In this document: positions 17,051 through 35,150 of the stretch, in pieces
Layout: each line of letters begins with the position of its first letter
How positions within the stretch are numbered: the first letter of the stretch is position 1
Source of the DNA: Paracoccus sp. UBA889
GTDB lineage: Bacteria > Pseudomonadota > Alphaproteobacteria > Rhodobacterales > Rhodobacteraceae
Length of the DNA: 61,846 nucleotides
Direction of reading: 5' to 3'
Assembly: GCA_002294185.1 (NCBI GenBank)
Contig: DBFD01000005.1
Location: forward strand, 1 to 61,846
The notes under the pieces: model-generated
The model's database searches: none
Told to the model about the DNA's origin: nothing
Seen by the model: the letters and a program-made list of their open reading frames with translations, nothing else
Translations under genes and position numbers: made by a program

Positions 17051-17220
17051 TGGAACTGAGCTATGAATGGACATCGGCCTTCGCCCAGTCCTTCGGTCTG
17101 ATCTACCTGATGGTCCTGTCGGTGGCGATCGCCGTCTATGCGTTCTGGCCCAGCCTGGGCAAGCGCTTCGACAAGGCCGCCAAGAGCATCCTGAACGATG
17201 AGGACGGCCCATGTCGGTAA
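17050..17220 (+). CDS. ccoQ: cbb3-type oxidase subunit CcoQ
   Basis: A 56-aa, single-TM protein (FGLIYLMVLSVAIAVYAFWP) followed by GKRFDKAAKSILNDED, the usual CcoQ tail. The start codon overlaps the ccoO stop and its end overlaps ccoP by 10 nt. CcoQ stabilises the CcoNO-CcoP interaction. Confidence 0.94.
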   Translation: MELSYEWTSAFAQSFGLIYLMVLSVAIAVYAFWPSLGKRFDKAAKSILNDEDGPCR

Positions 17221-19334: not shown

Positions 19335-21539
19335 CTAGCGCAGCGTGACAAGGACCGAGGCCGTCTTGTCTCGCAGCCTTGCGTCAAGCCGGATGGTGCC
19401 GGTCTCGCCAGTCGGGCGCAGCCAGCAGCCGGTGCTGCCGCCTTGCAGCACCGGGCAGGCCGGACCGATCAACCGGGCCGGACCGGCGAGGTCCAGAAAG
19501 ACCGGCTCGTTCAGGAAATGCAGCCGGTTGCCAGCCTGATCCAGCGCGCGGACGATCACCCGGATCTCGTCGCTGGGATCGGCGGCGGCTTCGGTCACGT
19601 CCGCGGCCAGAACCAGCCGGTCGAACACCGCTCCTGCGGGAAAGTGACGTTCGGCCACCAGCTCGCCGTCGCGATAGCCGCGCAAAAGGCCCGAATGCCA
19701 GCTTTCGCCCCAATCGCCCAGTTCCTCGGCCGAGAAATGGCGGTGGTCGATGATCACCGGCGGGTGGGGCAGATGCGGGAACCGCTCGCGGTCGGGGCTG
19801 ACACGCCTGGTCACGCGGGCATGGGACAATTCCACCTCGTCGCAATTCGTCAGCACGATCAGCGGCAGAACGCCGCCGATATTGCGCTCGCCGCGCGCCC
19901 AGACGGTGACGGGCTCCATCACGATGCCGTCCCCGGGGTCGCGCTGGCTGGCATAGGCATGGGCGGCGAATTTCGGCTCGCGGAAGATCGTCATCACGCC
20001 GTGATGGCAGATCCGGTCGCCGGCACCGAAATCCTTGTGGGTATTGTAATCGAACATGCACCAGCCGATGCAGCCGGCCAGTCCCGCGGCCGGGTCGTGA
20101 GCCGCATCCAGCACCTCGAGATGGCGCAGGACGTGTTCGTGCTGGCGATGTTCGGGATCGCCCGCCTTGGTCGGAAACATGTGCCCGTTATATTCGGTCA
20201 CCAGATAGGGCACTCGGGCGGGCAGGCCGGTGACCTCCTGCTGATCGCGCAGCGCGGTGCGCGGCCGGTTCGAAAAGGGCGTCTCGAAATCGCCGAGGAT
20301 GAAATCATTCATCGTATAGACGTCTTCCAGAAGCTGGCTGTCGGGGATGCAGCGAACGCCGCCGGTCGGCCGGGTCGGGTCCAGATCGCGCGCCAGCGCG
20401 TTGGTGCGGCGATAGAAATCCTCTGCATCAGGGCTTTCGTTGATGCGTACGCCCCAGATCACGATCGAGGGATGGTTCCAGTCGCGCCTGATCATCCTTT
20501 CCACGTTCAGCACCGATTCATCCTGCCAGCCGGGCCCGCCGATATGCTGCCAGCCGGGAATTTCCTCGAAGACCATCAGCCCGATTTCGTCGCAGCGGTC
20601 CAGGAACCACGGGCTTTGCGGGTAGTGCGAGGTGCGCGCGATGTTGCAGGCCAGATCGAAGCGCAGGATTTCGGCGTCGCGCTGCTGGCTGCGCCTGCCC
20701 TGCGCGTAGCCGGAATAGGGAAAGCTCTGATGCCGGTTCAGTCCGCGCAGGATGACGCGCGCGCCGTTCAGAAAGAACCCCTCGGGCGTGAAGCGCGCGT
20801 CGCGAAAGCCGAAGCGTTGGCTGAGGCGGTCGCCGCTGTCGGGCAGGGACAGCGTCAGCGTGTAAAGCGCGGGCGTATCGGGCGACCACAGCGTGATGCC
20901 TTCCAGCCCCGCAAGGCAGATCTCGCCCTGGCCGGTGGCATGCGCGATCTGGCGGCCGGACGCGTCCGACAGCACCGCCTCCACCGGGCCCGGCTGCGTG
21001 ACCTCGATCCGGGCAAGGACCGTCTTGCCGTCGGCCAGCACCTCGGGCGTCTCGATCTTGACGGCGGCGATGTGGCGTTCGGGCAGCACCTCCAGCCAGA
21101 CATCGCGATAGATCCCGGCATAGGTGAGATAGTCGATGCGCCCGCCGAAAGGCGGGATTTCCGGATTTTCCGATCCGTCGATTCGCACCGTCACCAAGGC
21201 TGAGCCGCCATCGAAACAGCCGGTGAGATCGACGGTGAAGGGCGTATAGCCGTCGCGGTGCCGCGCGACCCGCACCCCGTTCACCCAGGCCGTGGCATCG
21301 GCCATCGCCGCGTCGAAGCGCAGCCTGACGATCCGGCCCTGCCAGGCCGGTTCCCAGGCGATCTGGCGCTGATAGGTGAAGGGGCGCTGAAAATCGCCCT
21401 CGTCGAAATAGCTCAGCGGAAGATCGGCGGCGTTGTGGGGCAGGGTGACCGGTATGCCCGCCATCGACGCCGCGATATGGGCCTTGTCGAATCCGGGCGC
21501 AAAGCGCCAGCCGGCGTTCAGGGTGCGGATCTCTCTCAT
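19335..21539 (-). CDS. Glycoside hydrolase family 2 protein (beta-galactosidase-like)
   Basis: A 734-aa enzyme starting MREIRTLNAGWRF, chosen because that matches GH2 N-termini and it follows dgoD by 2 nt. The domain order is sugar-binding jelly roll (about 10-170), immunoglobulin-like (about 170-265), TIM barrel (about 265-570) and C-terminal beta domains. The acid/base is about E368 (GVRINESPD) and the nucleophile about E449 (TEYNGH). No signal peptide is seen, so it would act in the cytosol on imported oligosaccharides. Beta-galactosidase activity is favoured by the galactose genes around it; beta-glucuronidase or mannosidase cannot be excluded from sequence. Last gene of the leftward arm. 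Confidence 0.9.
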   Translation of the reverse strand: MREIRTLNAGWRFAPGFDKAHIAASMAGIPVTLPHNAADLPLSYFDEGDFQRPFTYQRQIAWEPAWQGRIVRLRFDAAMADATAWVNGVRVARHRDGYTPFTVDLTGCFDGGSALVTVRIDGSENPEIPPFGGRIDYLTYAGIYRDVWLEVLPERHIAAVKIETPEVLADGKTVLARIEVTQPGPVEAVLSDASGRQIAHATGQGEICLAGLEGITLWSPDTPALYTLTLSLPDSGDRLSQRFGFRDARFTPEGFFLNGARVILRGLNRHQSFPYSGYAQGRRSQQRDAEILRFDLACNIARTSHYPQSPWFLDRCDEIGLMVFEEIPGWQHIGGPGWQDESVLNVERMIRRDWNHPSIVIWGVRINESPDAEDFYRRTNALARDLDPTRPTGGVRCIPDSQLLEDVYTMNDFILGDFETPFSNRPRTALRDQQEVTGLPARVPYLVTEYNGHMFPTKAGDPEHRQHEHVLRHLEVLDAAHDPAAGLAGCIGWCMFDYNTHKDFGAGDRICHHGVMTIFREPKFAAHAYASQRDPGDGIVMEPVTVWARGERNIGGVLPLIVLTNCDEVELSHARVTRRVSPDRERFPHLPHPPVIIDHRHFSAEELGDWGESWHSGLLRGYRDGELVAERHFPAGAVFDRLVLAADVTEAAADPSDEIRVIVRALDQAGNRLHFLNEPVFLDLAGPARLIGPACPVLQGGSTGCWLRPTGETGTIRLDARLRDKTASVLVTLR

Positions 21540-21541
21540 GC

Positions 21542-22690
21542 CTACCACTCCGCGAAACTGCCATCGGCGTGGCGCCAGATCGGATTGCGCCAGCGATGCC
21601 CCCCGGCCGCTTCCTGCCGGACCCGGTCTTCGTTGACCTCGATGCCCAGGCCGGGGCCGTCGGGGATGGCGACGAAGCCGTCGCGATAGTCGAAGACGCC
21701 GGGATTCGTCAAATAATCCAGCAAATCCGATCCCTTGTTGTAGTGGATGCCCAGCGATTGTTCCTGGATGAAGGCGTTGTAGCAGACCGCATCCAGTTGC
21801 AGATTTGCGGCCAGCGCGATCGGCCCCAGCGGACAATGCAGCGCCAGCGCCACGTCATGCGCTTCGGCCATGGCGGCAATCCGGTAGGTTTCGGTGATGC
21901 CGCCCGAATGGCTGGGATCGGGCTGGATGATGTCCACATAGCCGCCATGCAGGATCTGCTTGAAGTCCCAGCGGCTGTAAAGCCGTTCGCCAAGCGCGAT
22001 CGGGGTTGCGCAATGATTGGCGATCTCGCGCAGCGCTTCGGCATGTTCGCTGAGCACGGGTTCCTCGATGAACATCAGATTGAAGGGCGCCAGCTCGCGT
22101 GCAAGCTGCTTGGCCATGGGGCGATGGACGCGACCGTGAAAATCCACGCCGATGCCGAAATCGGGGCCCATCTCGTCGCGGATCGCCTGCACGCGGGCCA
22201 GAACGGCGTCGATCCTGGCATGGCTGTCGATGAACTGCATCTCTTCGGTGCCGTTCATCTTGACCGCGGTAAAGCCGCGATCGCCGCATTCGCGCGCCAT
22301 GCGCGCGGTGTCGCCCGGCCGGTCTCCGCCGATCCAGCTATAGACCCGGATCCGGTCGCGCTGCCGCCCGCCCAGCAGCGCGTGGACCGGCACCCCAAGT
22401 GCCTTGCCCTTGATGTCCCACAGCGCCTGGTCGATCCCGGCGATGGCCGACATGTGGATGCCGCCGCCGCGATAGAAGCCGCCGCGATACATCACCGTCC
22501 AGTGGTCCTGGATATGGCCCGGATCGCGGCCGATCAGATAGTCGGACAATTCCTCGACGCAGGCGGCGACGGTGGCGGCGCGGCCTTCCAGCACCGGTTC
22601 GCCCCAGCCCGAAATCCCTTCATCGGTGCAGATCTTCACAAAGCACCAGCGCGGCGGCACGATGAATGTCTCGATGGTGGTGATTTTCAT
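21542..22690 (-). CDS. dgoD: D-galactonate dehydratase
   Basis: A 382-aa enolase-superfamily enzyme making 2-keto-3-deoxy-D-galactonate from galactonate. Mg2+ ligands and catalytic residues are visible: VDFHGRVHRP (Asp and His), FIEEPVL (Glu), ALGERLYSRWDF (Glu), and the C-terminal His in LHCPLGPIALA. MKITTIETFIVPPRW is the typical start. It overlaps galM by 4 nt and is followed after 2 nt by the GH2 gene. It is step three of the oxidative galactose route coded in this block. Confidence 0.95.
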   Translation of the reverse strand: MKITTIETFIVPPRWCFVKICTDEGISGWGEPVLEGRAATVAACVEELSDYLIGRDPGHIQDHWTVMYRGGFYRGGGIHMSAIAGIDQALWDIKGKALGVPVHALLGGRQRDRIRVYSWIGGDRPGDTARMARECGDRGFTAVKMNGTEEMQFIDSHARIDAVLARVQAIRDEMGPDFGIGVDFHGRVHRPMAKQLARELAPFNLMFIEEPVLSEHAEALREIANHCATPIALGERLYSRWDFKQILHGGYVDIIQPDPSHSGGITETYRIAAMAEAHDVALALHCPLGPIALAANLQLDAVCYNAFIQEQSLGIHYNKGSDLLDYLTNPGVFDYRDGFVAIPDGPGLGIEVNEDRVRQEAAGGHRWRNPIWRHADGSFAEW

Positions 22691-23625
22691 GAAAGCCTCG
22701 CGGTGAAATCCAGCCGGATGGTGTTGGTATAGATCTGTCCCGGCCGCAGGATGGCGTCGGGAAAGTCGTTGCGGTTGGGCGCGTCGGGCCAGGCCTGCGG
22801 CTCCAGGCACAGGGCCTCGGCGGCGGGCAATCGGGCCAGAAAGACCTGCAAGCCCGGCTGGTCGGTCGAAAGCCGCATCGCCCGCCCCGAGGCGCGATCC
22901 TCCAGCCACGCCACCGGGCGCAGGCCCGGCCCGTGATCGAGGCAGAGGCAATGGTCCAGGCCCGGCGCGTCCGGTCCGGGCAGCGGGCGAAAATCGCGAA
23001 AGTCGAAGCGGGTGCCCGCGACGGGCCGGGCCGGGCCTTTGGGGATCAGCGCCGCATCCACGGGCAGATAGCGTTTGGCGGCGACGCGCAGCCGGTGGTC
23101 CCGGACCGGCCCGCCGCCCGCGAGGTTGAAGAACCCGTGCGAGGTCAGCGAAACCGGGCAGGGGGCGGTGACCGTCGCGCGATAGGTCACCGTCAGGCTG
23201 CCGGGATCGTCCAGCGCAAAGTCCGCCCGTGCCTGCAACGCGCCCGGAAAGCCCTGATCGCCGTCCGGGCTGTCGAGACCCAGAACGACCGAGCGCGGGC
23301 CGCGATCCAGGACCTGCCAGTCGCGCCGGTCGAAACCCTCGGCGCCGCCATGCAGCGTATTCGCGCCCTCGTTCGCGTCCAGCCTAACCTGCCGGCCGTC
23401 CAGCATGAAGCCGGCGCCGCCGATGCGATTGGCATAGCGGCCGATGCTGCTGCCCCGGAACAGGCGTTCCCCGCGGTGATCGGCCGGCCGGGGTGGGCCG
23501 ATCAGCACCTCGCCGGGATGGCCGTCCGGGCCCGGAACGCGCAGGCTGGCCAGCGTCGCGCCATGGGGCAGGATCGTCGCGGAAAGGCCCGAGGGCAACG
23601 CAATGGTGCAGGCCGGTTCAGCCAT
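22687..23625 (-). CDS. galM: Aldose 1-epimerase (mutarotase)
   Basis: A 312-aa beta-sandwich enzyme interconverting alpha and beta sugar anomers. IGRYANRIGGAGF, the NTLHGGAEGFDRR histidine motif, SLTSHGFFNLAGG (second catalytic His) and the acid near RFDFR are all present. It overlaps the galactose dehydrogenase by 8 nt and dgoD by 4 nt. Feeding the beta-anomer to the 1-dehydrogenase is its obvious role here. Confidence 0.92.
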   Translation of the reverse strand: MAEPACTIALPSGLSATILPHGATLASLRVPGPDGHPGEVLIGPPRPADHRGERLFRGSSIGRYANRIGGAGFMLDGRQVRLDANEGANTLHGGAEGFDRRDWQVLDRGPRSVVLGLDSPDGDQGFPGALQARADFALDDPGSLTVTYRATVTAPCPVSLTSHGFFNLAGGGPVRDHRLRVAAKRYLPVDAALIPKGPARPVAGTRFDFRDFRPLPGPDAPGLDHCLCLDHGPGLRPVAWLEDRASGRAMRLSTDQPGLQVFLARLPAAEALCLEPQAWPDAPNRNDFPDAILRPGQIYTNTIRLDFTARLS

Positions 23626-24550
23626 GCCCGGTCTCGTCGAAGGGTGCGACGAGGCGGCGTCTGCCACAGAGGAACGCATCCGCGACCAGCCGCAGCGGAG
23701 CCAGATCGACCGCGCTTCTGCCAGCGGCGACAAGGTCGCGAAAGCCCTCGTAGAGCCGGCGATATTCCACGTCCTCGCCGCCGATGGCCGGCTTTCCGTC
23801 GGCCTCGAAGACCGCGCCGCCGTCACGCAGGCAGGCGGTGCCGTTCGTGGTCTCGAAGCCGATCTGCCAGGTTTCCCCGCCTTGTTCGCGCCAGTCGAAC
23901 TCGGCATCGATCGCAACCGCTCCGGCGGACAGCGCAAGCTGCGCCGCGATCGGGGTCTGGCGGCCCTCGGGAATGTCCAGGCCGGCCGCGCGCAGGATCA
24001 CCGGGTCTGCCATCAACGTCGTCAGCAGCGACAGCGCGTTGATGCCGGGATCGAAGACGCCCAGCCCCCCCGGCTGCCAGATCCAGTCCTGACCGGGATG
24101 CCATTTGCGCACATCCTCTCGCCAGTCGATGCGGACCTGCCGCACCTTGCGGACCGACAGCCAGCGGCGCGCGGCGTCCACCGCACGACCCTCGCGGCTG
24201 TGCCAGGTGGCGAAGATCGTCAGCCCGCGCCGTCCGGCCTCGTCGCGCAGGATCTCGGCCTCGGTCAGGGTCGCGGCAGGGGGTTTTTCCAGCATCAGAT
24301 GCCGCCCCGCGCGCAGGACCTGCATCGCCTGATCGAACCGTCCCTGTGGCGGCGTGCACAACGACACCGCCGCAAGGCCGGGTTCGGCCGCCAGCATCGC
24401 GGCCAGATCGGGGTAGGAGGGGCAATCCGGCAGGCTGGCGTTGCGGCTGGCGATGGCGGCCAGATGCACGCCGCCGGTCGCGGCGATGGCGGGCAGGTGC
24501 TGGGCACGGGCAATGGCGCCCAGTCCGACAAGACCGATGGCCAGCGACAT
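23618..24550 (-). CDS. gal: D-galactose 1-dehydrogenase (Gfo/Idh/MocA family)
   Basis: A 310-aa NAD(P)-dependent oxidoreductase. IGLVGLGAIARAQHLP is the Rossmann loop, EKPPAATL the conserved lysine motif, and WHSREGRAVDAARRWL and DPGINALSLLT are characteristic of galactose/arabinose 1-dehydrogenases of the De Ley-Doudoroff route. It makes galactono-lactone. Neighbours supplying the mutarotase, lactonase and galactonate dehydratase support the assignment over other Gfo/Idh enzymes. It overlaps the ABC ATPase stop by one base. Confidence 0.92.
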   Translation of the reverse strand: MSLAIGLVGLGAIARAQHLPAIAATGGVHLAAIASRNASLPDCPSYPDLAAMLAAEPGLAAVSLCTPPQGRFDQAMQVLRAGRHLMLEKPPAATLTEAEILRDEAGRRGLTIFATWHSREGRAVDAARRWLSVRKVRQVRIDWREDVRKWHPGQDWIWQPGGLGVFDPGINALSLLTTLMADPVILRAAGLDIPEGRQTPIAAQLALSAGAVAIDAEFDWREQGGETWQIGFETTNGTACLRDGGAVFEADGKPAIGGEDVEYRRLYEGFRDLVAAGRSAVDLAPLRLVADAFLCGRRRLVAPFDETGHG

Positions 24551-25605
24551 CAGCGCAGCCGCTGACCGGTCTGGGCATCGAAGATCAGCGCGCAGGCGGG
24601 ATCGAAGCCCGCGCCGATCGCGTCGCCGATCCGGACGGCGACCTTGTCGCGATCCTCGATGACCAGTTTTTCGCCGTTCTCGGCCGAGGCATGGACGTAG
24701 GAGACGCCGCCAAGCGCCTCGACCATGTCGACGCTCAGGCTGTCGCCGCCGTCGATCTTCAGGAATTCCGGGCGCAGGCCGACCGTTACCGCGGTCCCCT
24801 CGGCCGGCAGAGCGACAGGGCTGGGGATGCTGCGGCGCATGGTCGGGATCGCGATCTCGCCGTCCTTGACCCGCCCTTCCATGAAATTCATCGAGGGCGA
24901 GCCGATGAAACCCGCCACGAAGCGGTTGTCGGGATCATCATACAGGTCCATCGGCCGGCCGACCTGTTCGATATTGCCCGCGCGCAGGACGACGATCTTG
25001 TCGGCCATCGTCATCGCCTCGACCTGGTCATGGGTGACATAGATCATCGTCGCGCCGATCTCGCGGTGCAGGCGGGCGATCTCGGCCCGCATCTCGACGC
25101 GCAATTCGGCATCCAGGTTCGACAGCGGCTCGTCGAACAGGAACACCTCGGGGCCGCGGGTGATGGCCCGGCCGATGGCGACGCGCTGACGCTGGCCGCC
25201 CGACAAGGCCGCAGGCTTGCGATCCAGCAGCGGTTCCAGCTTCAAGATCTGCGCCGCCTCCTGCACCTTGGCGGCGATCTCGGTCCGCGGATGGCCGTTC
25301 ATCTTCAGCCCGAAACCCATGTTTTCGGCCACTGTCATGTGCGGATAGAGGGCATAGGTCTGAAACACCATTGCGATGCCGCGATCGGCCGGCTCGGCGC
25401 CGGTCACGTCGCGTCCGCCGATGCGGATCGCACCACCCGTCGTCTCTTCCAGCCCGGCGATCATCCGCAGCAGCGTGGACTTGCCACAGCCCGAAGGGCC
25501 GACGAAGACGCAGAACTCGCCCGGCTCGACCTGCAGATCGACGCCGTGGATGACCTCGGCATCGCCGAATTTCTTGACGATCTTTTCCAGTCCGACTCCG
25601 CTCAC
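24550..25605 (-). CDS. Sugar ABC transporter ATP-binding protein (MsmK/UgpC type)
   Basis: 351 aa from a GTG with GGGAGGA 7 nt upstream, which decides the start; upstream in-frame residues are not family-like. Walker A GPSGCGKST, Q-loop VFQTYALYPHMT, signature LSGGQRQR, Walker B VFLFDEPLSN and H-loop VTHDQ are present, followed by the TOBE/regulatory domain common to CUT1 importers. It is the only ATPase in the locus, so it should energise the permeases encoded on the opposite arm. That split across divergent operons is mildly unusual. Confidence 0.95.
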   Translation of the reverse strand: MSGVGLEKIVKKFGDAEVIHGVDLQVEPGEFCVFVGPSGCGKSTLLRMIAGLEETTGGAIRIGGRDVTGAEPADRGIAMVFQTYALYPHMTVAENMGFGLKMNGHPRTEIAAKVQEAAQILKLEPLLDRKPAALSGGQRQRVAIGRAITRGPEVFLFDEPLSNLDAELRVEMRAEIARLHREIGATMIYVTHDQVEAMTMADKIVVLRAGNIEQVGRPMDLYDDPDNRFVAGFIGSPSMNFMEGRVKDGEIAIPTMRRSIPSPVALPAEGTAVTVGLRPEFLKIDGGDSLSVDMVEALGGVSYVHASAENGEKLVIEDRDKVAVRIGDAIGAGFDPACALIFDAQTGQRLR

Positions 25606-25639
25606 GGGGTCCGTCCTCCCTTGTTCCGCGAACCCGCCT

Positions 25640-26443
25640 TCAGCCGGGCCGCTTCTGTTCCGGAAAGCGCCAGTCGCTGGCGGCTTTCGCAATCTTGTCC
25701 GCCGTGTCCAGGATCAGCGGGACGTGGCGTTCCAGCCGGTCATGTTCGGCGCGCTGGCCCGAGGTGATCGACAGCGCGCCCAGCACCCGGCCCTGCGGCG
25801 ACAGGATCGGCGCGGCGATACAGCGGATGCCGGGTTCGTGTTCCTCGTTGTCCCAGGCGATGCCGCATGCGCGGATGTCGCGCAGCTCGGCGCAGAGGCT
25901 TTCGGCATTCCTGTGCGTCTTGTCGGTGAAGCGGTGAAAGCTTTGCCGGGCCAGCGCGTCCCGCAGGGCGGGTTCGGGCAGAAAGGCCAGCATCGCCTTG
26001 CCGACGCCGGTGCAATAGGCCGGCCCGACCTTGCCCGATTGCGAGAACATCTCGACCGGGCGGGCGGCGTTGCGTTTGTCCACATACAGCACCATGCCCT
26101 GATCCAGCTGCGCCAGATGCAGTGTCTCGCCGGTAAGATGCGAAAGCTGGTCCAGATGGCACGCCGCGATCGGCGCCAGCGCGCTTTGCGACCAGGCCGC
26201 ATGAGCCAGCCGCACCAGGCGCAGGCCCGGCGCATAGGTCTGGCGATCGGCATCGAAGGCCAGCATCCCCTGCTTCGTCAGGGTCCGGAGAAAGCGGTAC
26301 AGCGTGGCCTTGGGCAGGCCGGATACGGGCAGCAATTCGGCAAAGCGCACCGGCCGGCCGAATTCGGCCACGCGATCCAGCACCGCCAGCGTGCGCCCGA
26401 CCGTGCCGTCCGTGCTGTCGGGCGCCGCAATCGCCTTGTTCAT
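25640..26443 (-). CDS. IclR-family transcriptional regulator
   Basis: A 267-aa protein. The winged HTH at about 12-75 (TLAVLDRVAEFGRPVRFAEL, LPKATLYRFLRTL) and the effector domain with GTRCIAAP-like GIRCIAAPILSPQGRVLGAL and the AYCTGVGKAMLA motif identify IclR. It is first in the leftward arm and divergent from the binding-protein gene. Two 15-bp repeats 20 bp apart in the gap are its likely target. A sugar or galactonate pathway intermediate is the probable inducer, by context only. Confidence 0.93.
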   Translation of the reverse strand: MNKAIAAPDSTDGTVGRTLAVLDRVAEFGRPVRFAELLPVSGLPKATLYRFLRTLTKQGMLAFDADRQTYAPGLRLVRLAHAAWSQSALAPIAACHLDQLSHLTGETLHLAQLDQGMVLYVDKRNAARPVEMFSQSGKVGPAYCTGVGKAMLAFLPEPALRDALARQSFHRFTDKTHRNAESLCAELRDIRACGIAWDNEEHEPGIRCIAAPILSPQGRVLGALSITSGQRAEHDRLERHVPLILDTADKIAKAASDWRFPEQKRPG

Positions 26444-26489
26444 GACTCCTCCTCAGGGCTGTTGACAGGATGAGAGATTCGCGGCAGCA

Positions 26490-26535
26490 TTTCAATATGT
26501 AAAATCAAGTTCCAGCATGTGAAACAAGATGCTGG
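26490..26535. promoter_or_regulatory. Likely IclR operator: direct and inverted repeats between divergent sugar operons
   Basis: TTTCAATATGTAAAA (26490) and TTCCAGCATGTGAAA (26510) are related 15-mers exactly 20 bp apart, on one face of the helix. CCAGCAT (26512) and ATGCTGG (26529) form an inverted repeat over the second copy. The A/T richness also suggests promoter elements. It lies between iclR and the binding-protein gene. Confidence 0.65.
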
Positions 26536-26569
26536 CTGTTTTACCGGCGAAAATGGGGAGGAGACCCGA

Positions 26570-27805
26570 ATGACGATGCCAAGAACCACCGCGCTGACGG
26601 CGCTGATGGCCGCGCTTGCCTTGCCCGCCATGGCCCAGCAACGCGATCTGACCCTGTTCACCGATGCCTCCGATCCGGCACCCAAGGCCGCCTTCGAGCA
26701 ACTGGTAAAGGGGTTCGAGGAGGAAAACCCCGATGTGAAGGTCACGGTCAACACCTTCGATCACGAAGGCTACAAGACCGCGATCCGCAACTTCCTGACC
26801 GCCGACAGCCCGGATCTGGCCAACTGGTATGCAGGCAACCGCATGGCGCCCTTCGTCAATGCCGGACAGTTCACCGATGTCTCGGATGTCTGGGAGGAGA
26901 ACGGGCTGAAGGAATCGCTGGCGCCGGCGCTGTCGTCGATGACCATCGACGACAAGCAATGGGGCGTGCCCTACACCTATTACCAGTGGGGCATCTACTA
27001 CAACAAGGATGTCTACAAGCAGGCCGGCGTCGAGGTGCCCAAGACCTGGGACGACTTCATCGCGAATTGCGAGAAGTTCAAGGAAATCGGCATCGATTGC
27101 CTGACCACCGGGACCAAGGCGCTGTGGCCCGCCGCCGGAATCTTCGACTATCTCAACCTGCGCACGAACGGCTACGATTTCCACATGCAGCTGACCAACG
27201 GCGAGATTCCCTGGACCGACGACCGCGTGCGCAAGGTCTTTGCCGAATGGGCCAGGGTTTTGCCCTATACCACGCCCAACGTCGCCGCGATCGATTGGCA
27301 GGACGCGGTGTCCAACATCGTGCAGGGCAAGGCCGCGAACTACGTCATGGGCAATTTCGCCGTCGCCACCTTCCGCGATGGCGGGATGACGGACGAGACG
27401 CTGGGCTTCATGGACTTTCCCGAGATCACGCCGGGCATCCCGCGTGCCGAAGAGGCGCCGACGGACACGATCCACATCCCGGCAGGCGCCAAGAACGTCG
27501 AGGATGCCAAGAAATTCCTGGCCTATGTGGCGCGCGCCGATGTGCAGACCGCGATGAACGAAACGCTGGGCCAGTTGCCGATCAACGTCAATTCGACCGT
27601 GGGGGACGATCCGTTCCTGAAACAGGGCTTCGAGGTGCTGTCCACCGCCGAGGGCGGCATCGCCCAGTTCTTCGACCGCGACGCGCCAGCGCAGATGGCC
27701 AAGGCCGGGATGGAGGGATTCCAGGAATTCATGGCCTATCCCGACCGTCTGGACGCGATCCTGGAACGGCTCGAATCGGTCCGCCAGCGCGTCTACAAGA
27801 ACTGA
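26570..27805 (+). CDS. Sugar ABC transporter substrate-binding protein (CUT1)
   Basis: A 411-aa periplasmic protein. A signal peptide (MTMPRTTALTALMAALALPAMA) ends at an AMA-Q cleavage site. The mature part begins LTLFTDASDPAPKAAFEQL and has WYAGNRMAPFV and YYQWGIYYNKDVYKQ segments typical of family 1 extracellular solute-binding proteins. GGGGAGGAG lies upstream of the ATG. The ligand is inferred to be a galactoside oligosaccharide from the alpha- and beta-galactosidase genes of the locus. A strong hairpin follows the gene. Confidence 0.93.
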   Translation: MTMPRTTALTALMAALALPAMAQQRDLTLFTDASDPAPKAAFEQLVKGFEEENPDVKVTVNTFDHEGYKTAIRNFLTADSPDLANWYAGNRMAPFVNAGQFTDVSDVWEENGLKESLAPALSSMTIDDKQWGVPYTYYQWGIYYNKDVYKQAGVEVPKTWDDFIANCEKFKEIGIDCLTTGTKALWPAAGIFDYLNLRTNGYDFHMQLTNGEIPWTDDRVRKVFAEWARVLPYTTPNVAAIDWQDAVSNIVQGKAANYVMGNFAVATFRDGGMTDETLGFMDFPEITPGIPRAEEAPTDTIHIPAGAKNVEDAKKFLAYVARADVQTAMNETLGQLPINVNSTVGDDPFLKQGFEVLSTAEGGIAQFFDRDAPAQMAKAGMEGFQEFMAYPDRLDAILERLESVRQRVYKN

Positions 27806-27815
27806 TCCTGCGCGT

Positions 27816-27849
27816 GGCGGGCGGTTCCCGGAACCGGGTGCCGCCCGCC
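27816..27849 (+). terminator. Strong GC hairpin between binding-protein and permease genes
   Basis: GGCGGGCGG (27816) pairs perfectly with CCGCCCGCC (27841). An inner CCCGG-AA-CCGGG stem extends the fold, and TTTCCCCCC follows. It lies inside an operon, so it probably works as a partial terminator and/or 3' stabiliser, raising binding-protein mRNA over permease mRNA. Confidence 0.8.
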
Positions 27850-27881
27850 TTTCCCCCCTTCCTGATCCGAGGAGTGCGACG

Positions 27882-28811
27882 ATGACCGTCTCGCCCGCCG
27901 CCGCGCTGCCGCCAAATGGCCCGCCCGCGCCGCGCCGCCGCAGGCTGGGGCGCAAGCTGGCGCCCTGGCTGTTCCTGGCCCCCGGCGCGATCATGTTCCT
28001 GGTCTATGTCATCATCCCGATCGGCCAGTCGATCCGGATCTCGTTCTTCGACTGGGACGGGCTCAGCCCGAAGGTCTGGACGGGGCTTTCCAACTATGCC
28101 GAGCTGTGGGGCGATCCGGCCTTCTACACCAGCCTCAAGAACAACGTGATCTGGCTGGTCCTGTACATGCTGGCGATCCCGGCCGGCCTGGCCATTGCGC
28201 TGTTTCTGAACCAGACCGTGCGCGGCATCCGCATCTACAAATCGCTGTTCTTCTTTCCCTTCGTGATTTCGCAGGTCGTGGTCGGCCTGATCTTCTCGTG
28301 GTTCTACGCGCCCGGTTTCGGGCTGTTCTTCGAGATGACGAAATGGTTCGGCGGCGAGGGCGTGGCGGTGCTTGCCAACCCCGATACCGTGACCTACGGC
28401 ATCATCGCCGCAGGTCTTTGGCCGCAGATCGCCTATTGCATGATCCTGTATCTGACCGGCCTGAACGCGGTCGCCCCCGACCAGATCGAGGCCGCCCGGC
28501 TGGACGGCGCCAAGGGGCTGAAGATGCTGTGGTACGTGGTGCTGCCGCAGCTTCGGCCAGCGACCTTCATCGCCGTCGTGGTGACCGTCATCGGCGCCCT
28601 GCGCAGCTTCGATCTGGTGTCGATCATGACTGATGGCGGACCGTTCGGATCGTCGCGGGTGCTGTCCTTCTACATGTATGAACAGGCGCTGTCGGAATAC
28701 GGCTATCGCATGGGATACGGCGCGGCCATCGCGGTGGTCCTGTTCGCGATCATGATGATCTTCATCTCGGGCTTCATCTGGAAGATGTGGCGCGACGAAA
28801 AGGGGCTTTGA
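27882..28811 (+). CDS. Sugar ABC transporter permease 1
   Basis: A 309-aa protein with six predicted TM helices, the first after a basic N-terminus (APWLFLAPGAIMFLVYVIIP). The EAA loop contacting the ATPase is visible (QIEAARLDGAKGLKMLWYVVLPQLRP). MalF/UgpA-like. GAGGAGTG lies before the ATG. One base separates its stop from the second permease gene. Confidence 0.94.
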   Translation: MTVSPAAALPPNGPPAPRRRRLGRKLAPWLFLAPGAIMFLVYVIIPIGQSIRISFFDWDGLSPKVWTGLSNYAELWGDPAFYTSLKNNVIWLVLYMLAIPAGLAIALFLNQTVRGIRIYKSLFFFPFVISQVVVGLIFSWFYAPGFGLFFEMTKWFGGEGVAVLANPDTVTYGIIAAGLWPQIAYCMILYLTGLNAVAPDQIEAARLDGAKGLKMLWYVVLPQLRPATFIAVVVTVIGALRSFDLVSIMTDGGPFGSSRVLSFYMYEQALSEYGYRMGYGAAIAVVLFAIMMIFISGFIWKMWRDEKGL

Positions 28812-28812
28812 G

Positions 28813-29658
28813 ATGTTTCCCAGACCCGTCCAGTCCATGAGCCCGGCCGCGCGGACCACCTACCAGATCGCATTGCCGGTGATGCTGATCCTGTGGCTTC
28901 TGCCGCTGCTGGGCGTGGCCCTGACCTCGGTCCGTCCCTCAAGCGATCTGGCGCAGGGCAATTATTTCGGGGTGCCGTCCTACCTGGCGTTTTCGAACTA
29001 TCTCGACGTGTTCCGCAATTCGCCCTTCGCCAGCTACATGCTGAATTCTTTCCGGGTGACGATCCCGACGGTGATCGGGGCGGTGGCGCTGTCCTGCCTG
29101 ACCGGCTATGCGCTGGCGGTCTACAGGTTCAGGGGCAACCTGATCGTCTTCTTCCTCTTCGTGGCGGGCAATTTCGTGCCCTTCCAGATCCTGATGGTTC
29201 CGGTGCGCGACCTGACGGTGACGATGGGATTATACAATACCATTACCGGGCTGGCGCTGTTCCACATTGCCTTCCAGACCGGGTTCTGCACGCTGTTCAT
29301 GCGCAATTTCATCAAGGCGCTGCCGCGCGAACTGATCGAGGCCGCCCGCGTCGAGGGCGTCAGCGAATGGCAGATCTTCTGGCATGTCGTGCTGCCGCTG
29401 GTGCGGCCCGCCATCGCGGCCCTGTCGGTGCTGGTCTTCACCTTCATCTGGAACGATTATTTCTGGGCAACGGTGCTGACGACCGGGGCCGGCACGCAGC
29501 CGATCACCGCCGGACTGCAATCGCTGAACGGGCAATGGGTGGCGGCCTGGCAACTGGTTTCGGCCGGATCGATCCTGGCCGCATTGCCGCCGGTGGCGAT
29601 GTTCTTTCTGATGCAGAAACACTTCATCGCGGGGCTGACGCTGGGGGCGGTGAAGTAA
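28813..29658 (+). CDS. Sugar ABC transporter permease 2
   Basis: 281 aa, MalG/UgpE-like, with six TM helices and the EAA loop LIEAARVEGVSEWQIFWHVV. It pairs with permease 1 and the ATPase encoded on the opposite arm. Its TAA stop shares a base with the ATG of the alpha-galactosidase gene. Confidence 0.94.
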   Translation: MFPRPVQSMSPAARTTYQIALPVMLILWLLPLLGVALTSVRPSSDLAQGNYFGVPSYLAFSNYLDVFRNSPFASYMLNSFRVTIPTVIGAVALSCLTGYALAVYRFRGNLIVFFLFVAGNFVPFQILMVPVRDLTVTMGLYNTITGLALFHIAFQTGFCTLFMRNFIKALPRELIEAARVEGVSEWQIFWHVVLPLVRPAIAALSVLVFTFIWNDYFWATVLTTGAGTQPITAGLQSLNGQWVAAWQLVSAGSILAALPPVAMFFLMQKHFIAGLTLGAVK

Positions 29659-31730
29659 TGATCCGAACCTGGTCGCTGGACGATGCGCGGCAAAGCCTGG
29701 TCCTGGCCAGCCGCGACGCCCGCCTGCCCGAGATCGTCTATTGGGGCGCGCCCCTGCCGCCGGACGAGGATCTGGCGGCGCTGGCCCGCTCGGGGTTGGC
29801 CGATGTCACCGGCGGGATGCTGGATCGGCTGCCCGAATTGTCGATCTGCCCGGAAGCCTCGCAAAGCTTCCCGGGCGAGCCGGGGCTGATCGCGCGCGAT
29901 CTACAGGGCCGCCCGCTGCGCCCCGCCTTCCGCCTTCAGGGCGACGAGACGGCCGAAGGGCGGCTGGCGCTGTCCTATCGTTGCGCGGCCACCGGCATCG
30001 GCTATCGCGCCAGCTTTGCGCTGGACGCGGATACAGGTCTGGTCGCGGCGCAGGCCGAAATCGACAGCGATCGGCCGATCATCCTGCACTGGCTGGCCGC
30101 GCCGGTCTTTCCGGGCCCGCAACTGGCCGACGAGATGCTGGAAATTTCCGGCCGCTGGTGCGGCGAATTCCAGATCGCGACGTCAGCCTGGCGCCCCGGC
30201 CAGCGCGTGCGCGACAATCATACCGGCCGCACCGGGCACGAACATTTCCCCGGCCTGATCCTGCCCGACCGCGGCGCCGCCAAGACCACGGGCGAGACCC
30301 GCGCCTTCCATTACGCCTGGTCGGGCGGGCACCGGATGCTGGCCGAGGAATTGCCAGACGGCCGCCGCCAGATCCAGTTCGGCCACGCTTCGGGCGCCGA
30401 GCCGGGGCCGGGACGGCATTTTCGCACCGCGACGCTTTACGCGGCCTTTTCGGATCAGGGCTCGAACGGCTGCGCGGTGGCGTTCCAGCGGTATCTGCGC
30501 GCCCGCGCGCCGCAGGCCCGCCCGCGCCCGGTCCACTATAATTGCTGGGAGGCAGTCTATTTCGATCACGATCTGGCCGCGCTGAAAGACATCGCCAGCC
30601 GCGCCGCCGCGCTTGGCGCGGAACGATTCGTGCTGGATGACGGCTGGTTCGGCCGGCGCGACGACGACACGACCAGCCTCGGAGACTGGCAGGTCGATCC
30701 GCGCAAGTATCCCGACGGGCTGGGTCCGCTGATCGCGCATGTGCGCGGGCTGGGCATGGATTTCGGCCTCTGGTTCGAACCCGAGATGGCCAACCGCGAC
30801 AGCGAACTGGCGCGCGCCCATCCCGACTGGATCCTCGGGGCCGGGGATCAGATCGAGGGCCGCGGCCAATGCGTGCTGGACCTGTCGCGGCCCGTGGTCC
30901 GCGACCATCTTTTCGCAGCCGTCGACGCCGTTCTTTCGGCTCACGCGATCGGCTATGTGAAATGGGATCATAACCGGGTGCTGCCGCATACGGACGCGGC
31001 GCAGGCGCGCGGACTTTATGACGTGCTGGACCGGCTGCGTGCGGCCCATCCGGGCGTCGAATTCGAAAGCTGCGCCTCGGGCGGGGGGCGGATCGATTTC
31101 GGCATTCTCGAACGCGCCGCACGGGTCTGGCTGTCGGACAGCAATGACGCGCTGGAACGGCTGCGCATCCAGCACGACGCAGCGCTGTTCCTGCCCGCCT
31201 GCGTCACCGGCAGCCATGTCGGCCCCCGCATCTGCCACACGTCGGGGCGCGAGATCGACATCCACACCCGCGCCTGGACCGCGGCCCAGCGGCACATGGG
31301 ATTCGAGATGGACCCGCGCGAACTGACCGATGACGAGGCGCGGGTGCTGCGCGACGTGACCGCGTGGTGGAAGGCGGGTCGCGACTGGCGGATGGAGGCC
31401 GATATCCTGCGGCTGGACAGCGCCGATCCGGCCGTTCTGGCCGAAATGCAACTGGCCCGCGACGGCCGCCGCTTCGTGGCCTTCGCCGCGCAGATGGCCA
31501 GTTCGGCGCCGATCCTGCCCCGGCCGCTGCGGCTGGCCGGGCTGCAGCCGGATGCCCGCTATCGGCTGCGCTTGCTTGATACCGGGCAGGGCACGCGGCT
31601 TTCGCGCGGGCTGCCGGCGCTGAAGGCCGGGCCGGTCACGGCCAGCGGTCAGGCGCTGATGCGGCGCGGCGTCACCCTGCCATGGACCTTTCCACAGCGG
31701 ATCCGGGTGATCGAAGGAGAAAGGGCATGA
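29658..31730 (+). CDS. Alpha-galactosidase, GH36
   Basis: A 690-aa enzyme starting MIRTWSLDDARQ, set by the overlap with the permease stop. An N-terminal beta domain (about 1-300) is followed by a TIM barrel with FVLDDGWFGRRDDD, GDWQVDPRKYPDGL, the nucleophile about D437 (VKWDHNR), ESCASGGGRIDFG, and the acid/base about D494 (WLSDSNDALERL). There is no signal peptide, so it hydrolyses imported alpha-galactosides in the cytosol. It releases galactose for the oxidative route encoded on both arms. It overlaps dgoK by 4 nt. Confidence 0.95.
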   Translation: MIRTWSLDDARQSLVLASRDARLPEIVYWGAPLPPDEDLAALARSGLADVTGGMLDRLPELSICPEASQSFPGEPGLIARDLQGRPLRPAFRLQGDETAEGRLALSYRCAATGIGYRASFALDADTGLVAAQAEIDSDRPIILHWLAAPVFPGPQLADEMLEISGRWCGEFQIATSAWRPGQRVRDNHTGRTGHEHFPGLILPDRGAAKTTGETRAFHYAWSGGHRMLAEELPDGRRQIQFGHASGAEPGPGRHFRTATLYAAFSDQGSNGCAVAFQRYLRARAPQARPRPVHYNCWEAVYFDHDLAALKDIASRAAALGAERFVLDDGWFGRRDDDTTSLGDWQVDPRKYPDGLGPLIAHVRGLGMDFGLWFEPEMANRDSELARAHPDWILGAGDQIEGRGQCVLDLSRPVVRDHLFAAVDAVLSAHAIGYVKWDHNRVLPHTDAAQARGLYDVLDRLRAAHPGVEFESCASGGGRIDFGILERAARVWLSDSNDALERLRIQHDAALFLPACVTGSHVGPRICHTSGREIDIHTRAWTAAQRHMGFEMDPRELTDDEARVLRDVTAWWKAGRDWRMEADILRLDSADPAVLAEMQLARDGRRFVAFAAQMASSAPILPRPLRLAGLQPDARYRLRLLDTGQGTRLSRGLPALKAGPVTASGQALMRRGVTLPWTFPQRIRVIEGERA

Positions 31731-32635
31731 GCCACGCCAACCCCGACTGGATCGCCGCCGATTGGGGCACGACGCATCTGCGGCTGTGGGCCATGAATGG
31801 CGACCGGGTGCTGGATCGCCGTGTCTCGGATCAGGGGATGGGCCGTCTGGCGCCCTCGGAATTCGGCCCGGTGCTGGAATCGGCGCTGCGGGGATGGGGG
31901 GTGGCCCCGGTCGTCGCCTGCGGCATGGTCGGCGCGCGCCAGGGCTGGTTCGAGGCGCCCTATACGCCGGTGCCCTGTCCGGCGCGGCCGCGGCTGGTCA
32001 GGGTGCCGGGGCACGCCGCGCGGCCGGTCTTCATCGCCTGCGGCCTGCGTCAGGACAGCCCGCCCGACGTGATGCGCGGCGAGGAAACCCAGATTGCCGG
32101 CCTGAGCCTGCGCGATCCGGATTTCGACGGCGCGGTCTGCCTGCCGGGGACCCATACCAAATGGGTCACGATTGCGGGCGGGCGCGTTGCCTGTTTCCGC
32201 AGCTGCATGACCGGCGAGATCTTCGATCTGCTCGCCCATCGTTCGATCCTGCGGCACATGCTGGGCGCGGGAGGTGACGACATGGCCGCCTTCGACGCGG
32301 CCTGTCAGGCGGCGCTGACCGATCCGGCCGCGGCCTATGGCGCGCTGTTCGGTCTGCGGGCCGGGGCATTGCTGAACGATCTCGCCCCCGCGACCGCTGC
32401 CTCGCGTCTGTCCGGGCTGCTGATCGGCTGGGAACTGGCCGCGACGCGCGATCTGTGGGCGGGCCGAACGGTGGCGCTGATCGGCAGCCGCGTGCTCAGC
32501 CCGCTTTATGCCCGGGCGCTGGCGACCCGCGGGATCGCCGCCACCGTCCATGACGCCGAATATCTGACCCTCGCCGGGCTTTTTGCCGCGCGCCACAGCC
32601 TGGAAATTTCCCATGACACCGGAGCCCAGCCATGA
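31727..32635 (+). CDS. dgoK: 2-dehydro-3-deoxygalactonokinase
   Basis: A 302-aa kinase phosphorylating 2-keto-3-deoxygalactonate. The opening WIAADWGTTHLRLWAM is the phosphate-binding loop of the ASKHA fold. VACGMVGARQGWFEAPY, CLPGTHTKWV and CMTGEIFDLLAHRSIL are family blocks. The ATG overlaps the alpha-galactosidase stop and its own stop overlaps dgoA (ATGA both times), tying expression together. Confidence 0.95.
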   Translation: MSHANPDWIAADWGTTHLRLWAMNGDRVLDRRVSDQGMGRLAPSEFGPVLESALRGWGVAPVVACGMVGARQGWFEAPYTPVPCPARPRLVRVPGHAARPVFIACGLRQDSPPDVMRGEETQIAGLSLRDPDFDGAVCLPGTHTKWVTIAGGRVACFRSCMTGEIFDLLAHRSILRHMLGAGGDDMAAFDAACQAALTDPAAAYGALFGLRAGALLNDLAPATAASRLSGLLIGWELAATRDLWAGRTVALIGSRVLSPLYARALATRGIAATVHDAEYLTLAGLFAARHSLEISHDTGAQP

Positions 32636-33240
32636 GCCGCCCCCTGATCGCCATCCTGCGCGGAATCACCCCGACCGAGGCGCTGCCCGTGGCCGGGGCA
32701 CTGATCGAGGCGGGCGTGACCCGGATCGAGGTGCCGCTGAACTCGCCCGAACCGCTGGACAGCATCGCCCGCATGGTCACGGCCTACGGGTCGGATGCGC
32801 TGATCGGCGCGGGCACGGTGCTGACCCCCGGTCAGGTGCGCGAGGTGGCCGCGACCGGCGCGCGGCTGATCGTCTCGCCCAATTGCGATCCGGCGGTGAT
32901 CGCGGCCAGCAAGGCCGCCGGGATGGACAGCTTTCCCGGCGTGATGACCCCGACCGAGGCTTTTGCCGCGCTGGCCGCAGGGGCGGACGGTCTGAAGCTG
33001 TTTCCCGGCGAATTGATCGGCCCGGCGGGACTGCGCGCAATGCGCGCCGTGCTGCCGCCGGAGGTGCCGCTGTTCGCGGTGGGCGGCGTCTCGGCCGACA
33101 ACATGGCCGATTGGCACCGCGCCGGTGCCGCCGGATACGGGATCGGATCGGCGCTCTACAAGCCCGGCGACAGCGCCGCGACCGTCGCCGCGAGGGCGCG
33201 CGAGCTGATAGCCCGCTTTGACGGGGCGTGCGCGGCATGA
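32632..33240 (+). CDS. dgoA: 2-dehydro-3-deoxy-6-phosphogalactonate aldolase
   Basis: A 202-aa class I aldolase giving pyruvate and glyceraldehyde-3-phosphate. AILRGITPTEALPV, the Glu in RIEVPLNSPE, GAGTVLT and the Schiff-base lysine in LKLFPGE are visible. It overlaps dgoK upstream and the lactonase gene downstream by 4 nt each. The galactonate version rather than the gluconate KDPG aldolase is chosen from the flanking dgoK and dgoD. Confidence 0.94.
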   Translation: MSRPLIAILRGITPTEALPVAGALIEAGVTRIEVPLNSPEPLDSIARMVTAYGSDALIGAGTVLTPGQVREVAATGARLIVSPNCDPAVIAASKAAGMDSFPGVMTPTEAFAALAAGADGLKLFPGELIGPAGLRAMRAVLPPEVPLFAVGGVSADNMADWHRAGAAGYGIGSALYKPGDSAATVAARARELIARFDGACAA

Positions 33241-34091
33241 CGGCGGGGATCCTTGATGGCCGCGCCTGTTTTCTGGGCGAAGGACCTTTGTGGCACCCGC
33301 TGCGCGGTCAGCTGTTCTGGTTCGACATCCTCGACGGACGGCTGCTCAGCCGCGACGCGCAGGGCGCGCGGGAATGGCCGATCGGCCAGATGGCCGCCGC
33401 CGCCGCCTGGGTCGATGCCGACACGCTGGCGATTTCAACCGAGACCGGGCTGCGGCTTTTCGACATCGCCAGCGGCGCGCACGAGCCGCTGGCCGGAATC
33501 GAGGCCGACAACGCTGCGACGCGCTGCAATGACGGACGGGCCGATCCGATGGGCGGGTTCTGGGTCTCGACCATGGGCAAGCGGGCCGAACCGGGGGCGG
33601 GGGCGATCTATCGCTATTACCGGGGGGCGGTCGCGCCGCTGTTCACCGCGATCACCATCCCCAATGCGATCTGTTTCGCCCCGGATGGACGCCGCGCCTA
33701 TTTCGCCGATACCCCGACCGGCCGGATCATGACGGTCGCGCTGGATGCGCAGGGCTGGCCCGATGGCGCGCCCGAAGTCTTCGCCGATCTTGCCGCGGAA
33801 GGACTGAACCCCGACGGCGCCCAGACCGATGCCCAGGGCGGGGTCTGGAACGCGCAGTGGGGCGCCGGGCGCGTGGCCCGCTATCGCCCCGATGGCAGCT
33901 TCGATCGGGCCATCGCGGTGGGCGGGCGGCACGCATCCTGTCCCGCGTTCGGCGGGCCGGATTTCGCGACCCTGTTCGTCACCACCGCGCGGCAGGGAAT
34001 CGAGGCACCGGATGCGGGGCAGGGCTGTGTCTATCAGGCGCCCGCCGGAATCGCAGGCCGCGCCGAGCCCGCACTGCTGCTGGGCCGCTGA
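33237..34091 (+). CDS. SMP-30/gluconolactonase family lactonase (probable galactonolactonase)
   Basis: A 284-aa six-bladed propeller. Metal-site residues are recognisable: Glu15 in FLGEGPLWH, the Asn in RCNDGRADPMGGFWV, and PNAICFAPDGR and GLNPDGAQTDAQGG loops. It would open galactono-1,4- or 1,5-lactone to galactonate, between the dehydrogenase and DgoD steps. It ends the rightward operon. Start set by the ATGA overlap with dgoA. Confidence 0.9.
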   Translation: MTAGILDGRACFLGEGPLWHPLRGQLFWFDILDGRLLSRDAQGAREWPIGQMAAAAAWVDADTLAISTETGLRLFDIASGAHEPLAGIEADNAATRCNDGRADPMGGFWVSTMGKRAEPGAGAIYRYYRGAVAPLFTAITIPNAICFAPDGRRAYFADTPTGRIMTVALDAQGWPDGAPEVFADLAAEGLNPDGAQTDAQGGVWNAQWGAGRVARYRPDGSFDRAIAVGGRHASCPAFGGPDFATLFVTTARQGIEAPDAGQGCVYQAPAGIAGRAEPALLLGR

Positions 34092-34289: not shown

Positions 34290-35150
34290 TCACGGCCCGG
34301 CCTCGAACCAGTCCAGCATCGCCGTCGCCCAGCCCTTCGGCACCACATGGCCGCCCGGATGCAGCGCGAGGACCAGCGATGCGCCGGGCGCGCAATCGCT
34401 CCACCGCCGGATCTGGAACGACGGATCGCCCGCGAAACCGTCGGGCTGGCTGCGCGGGCAGCGGTTCGCCGCGCGCCAGATCGCCATGGCGGCGAAGACA
34501 TCGCCCTGCACCGCCGTGCCGCCACCGACCGCGCGACCCTCCAGCGGGACGGTGCCGTCGCGCCAGCCATGGGTGTGGAACAGCCGCACCGGACCGGCGC
34601 AGGCGCGCGGCATCGGTCGCCAGAAACTGCCGCCGACCGGGGCATAGGCGGCGAAACTGCCGGGCGTGTCGCAGGCCACGTAACTGACCATCGAGCCGCC
34701 GACCGAAAATCCCGCGAGAACCATCCGCGCCCGGTTCAGGCCCTGGCGGCGGGCGGCATCGTTGGCCACGGCGCGCAGGAACGCGCCCTCGTCACGGCCA
34801 GCCGCGCGCCCCTGGCGCGGAAACAGCCATTGCCGCCCGTCGCGCCCCTCGCGCGGGCTGCCATCCGGGGCGATCACCGCATAGCCACGCCCGGTCAGCT
34901 CGCGAACCACCCCGGACATGGCCAGGATCCCGGATCCGTCACTGCCCCAGCCATGCAGCATCACCACCGCCGGCCAGCCACCGGGCGGCGCCTCGCCCCC
35001 GGGCAGGACCAGATGATAGCTGCCTGAAACCGCGCCCGCCTGAACCTGGCAGGCCGCCTTCCGGTCGGCGCATCCGGCCCGCGCCAGACCCGGCAGCGCC
35101 AGCGCCAGCATCACCAGCGAAATCAGCAGCCCGATCTGCCGCCGGATCAT
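34290..35150 (-). CDS. Secreted alpha/beta-hydrolase (polyhydroxybutyrate depolymerase / LpqC-type esterase family)
   Basis: A 286-aa protein with a signal peptide (LLISLVMLALALPGLARA). The oxyanion region is VVMLHGWGSDG, the nucleophile elbow GFSVGGSM, and the C-terminal His lies in LALHPGGHVVPKGW; paired cysteines suggest export. Its ATG overlaps the OpgC-like gene stop by 4 nt. It resembles the PHB depolymerase/feruloyl-esterase-like family. In this context a carbohydrate acyl-esterase is as plausible as a polyester hydrolase; the substrate is not shown by sequence. Confidence 0.82.
   Translation of the reverse strand: MIRRQIGLLISLVMLALALPGLARAGCADRKAACQVQAGAVSGSYHLVLPGGEAPPGGWPAVVMLHGWGSDGSGILAMSGVVRELTGRGYAVIAPDGSPREGRDGRQWLFPRQGRAAGRDEGAFLRAVANDAARRQGLNRARMVLAGFSVGGSMVSYVACDTPGSFAAYAPVGGSFWRPMPRACAGPVRLFHTHGWRDGTVPLEGRAVGGGTAVQGDVFAAMAIWRAANRCPRSQPDGFAGDPSFQIRRWSDCAPGASLVLALHPGGHVVPKGWATAMLDWFEAGP

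Follow-up and report, generated by a model that had tools for sequence, protein, structure and literature searches.

Oxidative catabolism of galactose by the De Ley-Doudoroff pathway is exemplified by the dgo genes of Escherichia coli and by the galactose dehydrogenases of pseudomonads and rhizobia. Galactoside uptake has its own models in the rhizobial lac and alpha-galactoside (agp/mel) loci, which combine ATP-binding cassette (ABC) import with a cytoplasmic GH2 or GH36 enzyme and use separate transporters. Deletion phenotypes in S. meliloti bear on loci of this kind, according to passages of one study (PMC4961836), and the De Ley-Doudoroff pathway is described for Roseobacter clusters, although not for all of them, in the passages available from two others (PMC10675870, PMC12661815). 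Here we describe a locus at positions 19335-34091 of contig DBFD01000005.1 from Paracoccus sp. UBA889; the window, from this point on, is the whole stretch of 61,846 nucleotides. The locus differs from the pathway as otherwise known in uniting it with import, both an alpha- and a beta-galactosidase, and an IclR-family regulator at a single site. The pathway and its use in Rhodobacteraceae are already known; what is new is the comparison across relatives, in which the pairing of the two galactosidases is conserved and the enzyme families are swapped. No description of this locus family was found in a literature search of open papers, among the matches listed.

The source genome is a draft of 3.24 Mb in 79 contigs, with a completeness of 97%. 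Two divergent operons flank the gene for the IclR-family regulator (25640..26443, minus strand; IclR_C and HTH_IclR domains). Thirteen genes were called, 12 of them identified through Pfam or NCBIfam matches and one, ABC permease 2, through its open frame, position and conservation. Gene starts were re-examined, and same-strand neighbours mostly overlap or lie only a few bases apart. On the plus strand are a periplasmic solute-binding protein with a signal peptide recognised by eye (26570..27805; SBP_bac_1), permease 1 (27882..28811; BPD_transp_1) and permease 2 (28813..29658). The MalK/UgpC-type ATPase of the importer (24550..25605; ABC_tran, OB_MalK and TOBE_2 domains; given a GTG start) sits with the regulator in the minus-strand operon. 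An earlier interpretation made from the nucleotide letters (the sequence-only reading) had seen two divergent operons with import, both types of hydrolase and a full oxidative set. This holds, in that families could be assigned and the order recurs in relatives; since most of the order recurs, chance is no concern. In detail, the GH2 gene starts near 21539 and not at the end of the open frame, 21836.

By family assignment, the De Ley-Doudoroff pathway is complete at the locus, which bears out the earlier claim that every step from oligosaccharide to pyruvate and glyceraldehyde-3-phosphate is encoded. As in the pathway elsewhere, DgoD, DgoK and DgoA would follow the putative oxidation and lactone-opening steps and yield pyruvate and glyceraldehyde-3-phosphate. 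The D-galactonate dehydratase DgoD (21542..22690, minus strand) scores far above the cut-off of NF010624 (681 versus 311 bits) and matches the solved structure 3rr1 at 508 bits. DgoK, the 2-keto-3-deoxygalactonokinase (31727..32635, plus strand), exceeds the cut-off of PF05035 (303 against 25 bits), as DgoA, the 2-keto-3-deoxy-6-phosphogalactonate aldolase (32632..33240, plus strand), exceeds that of NF006600 (283.6 against 207 bits), with the Eda model below its own cut-off. A GalM-like aldose 1-epimerase, or mutarotase (22687..23625, minus strand; PF01263), falls slightly short of the NF008277 cut-off (235.7 against 240 bits). Oxidation is assigned to an aldose 1-dehydrogenase of the Gfo/Idh/MocA family (23618..24550, minus strand; PF01408), putatively acting on galactose, and lactone opening to an SMP-30/gluconolactonase-like (SGL) protein (33228..34091, plus strand; PF08450, 217 bits), a putative galactonolactonase.

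The GH2 beta-galactosidase (19335..21539, minus strand; 734 amino acids with Pfam GH2 domains) resembles a solved beta-D-galactosidase, 5ldr/5euv, over its full length (phmmer, 1118 bits over 722 residues, positions 1-722), and each of 11 listed NCBIfam GH2 models scores below its own cut-off. We take these structures to be those of the beta-galactosidase of Paracoccus sp. 32d. The Paracoccus sp. 32d enzyme cleaves lactose and o-nitrophenyl-beta-D-galactopyranoside, as stated in the part of the report available (PMC3268748). The GH36 enzyme (29658..31730, plus strand; PF02065, 335 bits), a single copy in the source genome, aligns with AgaB (4fnq, 284 bits) and others and has the family domains. 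Its Asp438 and Asp495 (numbered from the GTA at 29655), presumably the catalytic nucleophile and acid/base, are invariant in 86 of 86 aligned sequences; activity on alpha-galactosides is predicted from the domains and these residues. By eye, neither galactosidase has a signal peptide. Elsewhere in the source genome there is a short GH42-family match (27.2 bits against a cut-off of 21; 50 of 376 positions).

Relatives were collected from two anchors. Among 584 confirmed relatives of the GH36 enzyme, the best 80 were taken, of which 62 loci have at least 9.5 kb on each side. The IclR regulator, the ATPase, the binding protein and both permeases each occur in all 62 of these full loci, along with DgoK (59), DgoA (58), SDR (57) and SGL (54); IlvD/Edd (10), Gfo (3) and DgoD (2) are rarer. 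Every one of the 62 has one beta-galactosidase family, GH42 in 60 and GH2 in two, never together. Among the best 80 of 584, a beta-galactosidase occurs in 75, the other five being truncated on one or both sides. The GH42, SDR and IlvD/Edd assignments of representatives were confirmed by Pfam. Four GH42 loci (L005, L012, L015 and L038) carry Gfo/Idh and are without DgoK and DgoA in the available stretch.

The second anchor was permease 2, a relative of which (E <= 1e-95) occurs in 181 of 395 Rhodobacteraceae genomes. Sixty of 150 listed places, in 59 genomes, were sampled. The choice was not random: it favoured places at a good distance from contig starts and drew on different parts of the ranking, and the source genome, G420 and G108 were among those left out. 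Three incomplete loci were dropped before counting, leaving 57 of full length, in which galactosidases were judged by GH36, GH4, GH2 and GH42 seeds. Both an alpha- and a beta-galactosidase are present in 51, a beta-galactosidase only in three, an alpha-galactosidase only in none, and neither in three; these last three are also without DgoK and DgoA. The alpha slot is filled by GH36 in 39 loci and by GH4 in 12, never together, and GH4 on the Ruegeria sp. B32 plasmid was confirmed by Pfam. GH42 is found in 54 loci, and GH2, Gfo and DgoD in none. IclR occurs in 54, DgoK and DgoA in 47 each, SDR in 45, SGL in 36 and IlvD/Edd in 15. Six loci thus depart from the pair; ten genes taken from five of them were scanned, and no galactosidase was found. 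L131, L134, L144, L145, L154 and L180 carry both galactosidases with neither DgoK nor DgoA nearby, which argues that the tie to the importer is looser for the oxidative genes than for the two galactosidases. When 135 loci were pooled, some of them incomplete, no DgoD or IlvD/Edd was seen in 102 and no SDR or Gfo in 20. The complete set in the window is therefore unusual, whereas the alpha-beta pair is not.

Different families thus fill four slots: GH36 or GH4, GH2 or GH42, Gfo or SDR, and DgoD or IlvD/Edd. The folds of GH36 and GH4 are unrelated, and GH2 and GH42 belong to one clan. Since the alpha-beta pairing is kept despite these swaps, the pairing itself seems to be under selection, so far as gene content can tell. 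To illustrate, rhodobacteral loci with the content IclR, binding protein, permeases, GH36 or GH4, SDR, DgoK, DgoA, SGL and GH42 (as in Ruegeria sp. B32 and Oceaniglobus L004) have the regulator, importer, kinase, aldolase and lactonase families in common with the window, but have GH42 for GH2, mostly SDR for Gfo/Idh, and IlvD/Edd or no recognised dehydratase for DgoD. A GH2 version occurs in Paracoccus aestuarii and Falsirhodobacter algicola, with nearly the same genes and order (the existing annotations there already name an alpha-galactosidase, GH2, dgoD and others). This version differs in lying on plasmids and in having no mutarotase between Gfo/Idh and DgoD; the window contig, unlike those plasmids, in part resembles large Paracoccus replicons bearing housekeeping genes.

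Conservation extends to the region between the IclR and binding-protein genes, which was extracted for 73 of 84 loci. It holds a tandem palindrome, TTTCA-N6-AAAAC plus GTTTCA-N5-TGAAAC (26490..26525 in the window, plus strand), and in 58 of the 73 loci a TTGACA lies 28-30 bp ahead of the palindrome start (26462..26467, plus strand; a -35-like box of the importer operon). The palindrome is within three mismatches of its 26 fixed letters in 54 of the 73 loci and within seven in 69, against at least 10 in shuffles, a count that describes a footprint and is no independent test, as the pattern was derived from the same loci. The copy in the window has two mismatches, and the degenerate pattern, allowing up to three, finds this single site in the source genome. 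GH36-anchored rhodobacteral loci have the same operator type. The IclR gene adjoins this conserved palindromic site, as expected of an IclR-regulated operon, and the tandem palindrome following TTGACA is likely to be the IclR operator.

The sequence-only reading had also noted that galK, galT and galE are missing. This is correct for the locus and, for galK and galT, extends to the whole source genome, in which neither has a match (absence from a 97% complete draft not being absolute); it fails for galE, which has one match over the cut-off elsewhere (G000:C5). A galK/galT-less oxidative route is ordinary for the family: in Rhodobacteraceae genomes, galK is over its cut-off in three of 150 and DgoK in 127 of 150. 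The source genome has a second DgoK (G000:C60:9014-9865; L091:8981-9925), which scores above the window's own, adjoins a pyridine nucleotide-disulphide oxidoreductase gene and has a CitMHS-type transporter gene close by. We considered and rejected a second complete dgo locus, the 20 kb around this DgoK being without further seed genes. Elsewhere within the genus, a plasmid of Paracoccus zhejiangensis (L121, NZ_CP025431.1, 3479-14270) encodes a LacI regulator, a different sugar importer, GH36, galE, a uridylyltransferase and galK, which by gene content is a Leloir alternative within Paracoccus.

Taken together, the dgo scores, the GH2 and GH36 assignments, the missing galK and galT, the conserved pairing, the slot swaps and the operator footprint make it highly probable that this is an IclR-controlled locus for general galactoside scavenging. 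The binding protein would recognise a terminal galactopyranosyl unit, such that alpha- and beta-galactosides enter through one importer, and cytoplasmic GH36 and GH2 would release galactose. Galactose would then be converted through galactonolactone, galactonate, 2-keto-3-deoxygalactonate and its 6-phosphate to pyruvate and glyceraldehyde-3-phosphate. Repression by IclR would act from the tandem palindrome, where the importer operon begins, and might be lifted by a pathway intermediate; our guess, by analogy with KdgR, is 2-keto-3-deoxygalactonate. The sequence-only reading had gone further in naming mixed-linkage galacto-oligosaccharides of plants or algae as the true substrate. That both linkages matter is borne out by the pairing in relatives; a mixed-linkage oligosaccharide as substrate is plausible but unproven, since an importer recognising terminal galactosyl units would equally explain separate uptake of alpha- and beta-galactosides.

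Several observations weigh against general galactoside scavenging. Ten of the 57 transporter-anchored loci are without a nearby DgoK and ten without a nearby DgoA, six have both galactosidases and neither of these genes, and three have no galactosidase by the seeds used. DgoK is present twice in the source genome, and the lactonase family PF08450 specifies no particular substrate. The Gfo/Idh protein resembles an L-arabinose 1-dehydrogenase (6jnj, 328 bits) as closely as a D-galactose-1-dehydrogenase (4ew6, 313 bits), so that sequence alone does not decide its substrate, and galactose is argued from the neighbouring DgoD, DgoK and DgoA. A pathway for a different sugar (L-arabinose or D-fucose, for example) would draw on the first of these two matches, the best solved one, and on the sole NCBIfam match of the GH36 enzyme, a beta-L-arabinopyranosidase model (81.9 bits, far below its cut-off of 1100). 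We consider such a pathway very improbable, given that DgoD and DgoA are over their cut-offs, DgoK is present and GH2 is nearest a beta-galactosidase. An L-arabinose route was rejected as the principal explanation for the presence of these three Dgo enzymes and because no arabinose-route aldehyde dehydrogenase or DapA-type dehydratase occurs among the scanned locus genes.

A further point against scavenging of galactosides in general comes from the binding protein, whose nearest solved relative by far is AcbH of Actinoplanes (3oo6, 206 bits, E 1.3e-59; the next different protein reaches 111 bits, 6.8e-31). The two are identical at 125 of 362 aligned residues (34.5%), and AcbH has the same residue at 44 of 90 positions strongly conserved among binding proteins of the locus family. 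AcbH is reported to bind galactose with high affinity, and a paper title credits it with preferring beta-D-galactopyranose exclusively (PMC3364876, PMC8233162), which would fit free galactose better than oligosaccharides. It differs from the window protein in being galactose-specific by that report; its gene belongs to the acarbose cluster, as part of the acbGFH operon (PMC3364876). The importer might on these grounds serve chiefly free galactose, with the galactosidases acting on galactosides that enter otherwise. We hold this to be unlikely, as the window locus has no second importer, yet galactosidases of both types without visible signal peptides adjoin the one it has, and 51 of the 57 related loci likewise carry both. 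The occurrence of beta-only and no alpha-only loci, together with the likeness to AcbH, suggests that beta-galactosides are the core ligand of the importer. Three places with near relatives of permease 2 (L149, L169 and L171) have no GH36, GH4, GH2, GH42, DgoK or DgoA match nearby, so the importer family may serve ligands beyond galactosides too; L149 has an IlvD/Edd match, and L171 has a phosphodiesterase-family gene downstream.

Scavenging could also be narrower than we propose. The natural substrate might be the head groups of plant or algal galactolipids, that is, digalactosylglycerol (alpha-Gal-1,6-beta-Gal-glycerol) and beta-galactosylglycerol, with GH36 or GH4 taking the alpha cap and GH2 or GH42 the beta-galactose. 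Digalactosylglycerol needs exactly one alpha- and one beta-galactosidase, as seen in the loci, and the greater constancy of the beta enzyme (beta only in three of 57 loci, alpha only in none) is expected if monogalactosylglycerol is also used. Many genera among the best 80 of 584 GH36 relatives are, we presume, marine, which we count in favour. Precedent exists in a proposal by Egel of the same idea for the lac operon of E. coli, as cited in a passage of PMC8333865. Such a substrate nevertheless appears improbable: family scans recognised no lipase or glycerol gene in the window locus, the esterase at 34290 is unmatched in the 80 GH36-anchored relatives within available flanks, and a literature search on digalactosylglycerol, floridoside, galactosylglycerol and galactolipid gave no such bacterial locus among the matches listed. 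The extended form, in which the locus family, widespread in Rhodobacteraceae, is dedicated to mono- and digalactosylglycerol scavenging and selection keeps the alpha-beta pair behind one importer with families exchanged per slot, strikes us as a little more doubtful still.

As to the history of the locus, a permease tree of 135 loci unites the nine GH2 loci in a single clade (0.999), requiring one change in the beta slot. The grouping recurs in smaller trees of permeases (0.997), of IclR and ATPase (0.996) and of DgoK and DgoA (1.0, the last tree excluding the incomplete L003); the GH36 tree fails to recover it. GH2 and DgoD mark one clade, and a GH42 locus probably gave rise, a single time, to the GH2-DgoD arrangement. 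The dehydrogenase varies inside the clade, as Paracoccus loci L102 and L104 have SDR and no Gfo/Idh match. The window locus resembles the rhizobial lac and agp/mel loci in its ABC import with cytoplasmic GH2 and GH36 and differs in sharing one importer between them. In this family too, among GH2 relatives in 12 other genomes of 296, seven stand beside a different sugar importer, one in a locus of the present type and four without other seeds in the stretch. From this distribution, GH2 was probably recruited from lac-like operons. For the alpha slot, parsimony on the permease tree needs at least 13 changes, as many as with shuffled labels (mean 12.66, lowest 10), so that GH36 and GH4 carry no phylogenetic signal there. 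An exchange history was accordingly rejected for this slot; the missing signal may reflect frequent exchange or tree noise. GH36 may have been replaced within Paracoccus: the enzymes of L102-L104 group with those of L100 and L101 (split 0.993), but these are also simply divergent sequences.

The locus probably arrived by horizontal transfer, although the comparisons fall short of proof. In its permeases, IclR and ATPase it is nearer to Celeribacter halophilus and Thioclava indica than to its genus mates, and in other Paracoccus and in Falsirhodobacter the locus is plasmid-borne. On the left flank, the order common to genus mates stops directly before the locus. Seven stretches were examined from nine other places, and none of them has the GH36, GH2 or dgo genes of the locus after the DUF2189 gene; only weak importer-type matches (28-45%) occur, in L183 and L186. 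That flank (14614-19131) consists of COX1, FixO and FixP-type cbb3 oxidase genes and then the DUF2189 gene, in an order kept in genus mates. On the right, at 34290-36460, two genes run convergent with the locus, one for OpgC and one for a PHB-depolymerase-type esterase whose start looks signal-like by eye; both were rejected as members, none of the 80 GH36-anchored relatives matching either within available flanks. Farther on, at 39168-42541, a TPP enzyme gene adjoins a CoA-transferase family III gene, a pair that to us resembles oxalyl-CoA decarboxylase and formyl-CoA transferase.

The locus provides a clear genetic basis for Leloir-free use of galactosides in a large family of water and soil bacteria. 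As a catabolic locus it keeps its regulator and importer fixed while the families of alpha-galactosidase, beta-galactosidase, dehydrogenase and dehydratase are swapped, and from swaps of this kind one can read in genomes which chemistry is required. Should the substrate prove to be galactolipid head groups, the locus would mark where membrane lipids that rank among the most abundant in algae and plants are consumed.

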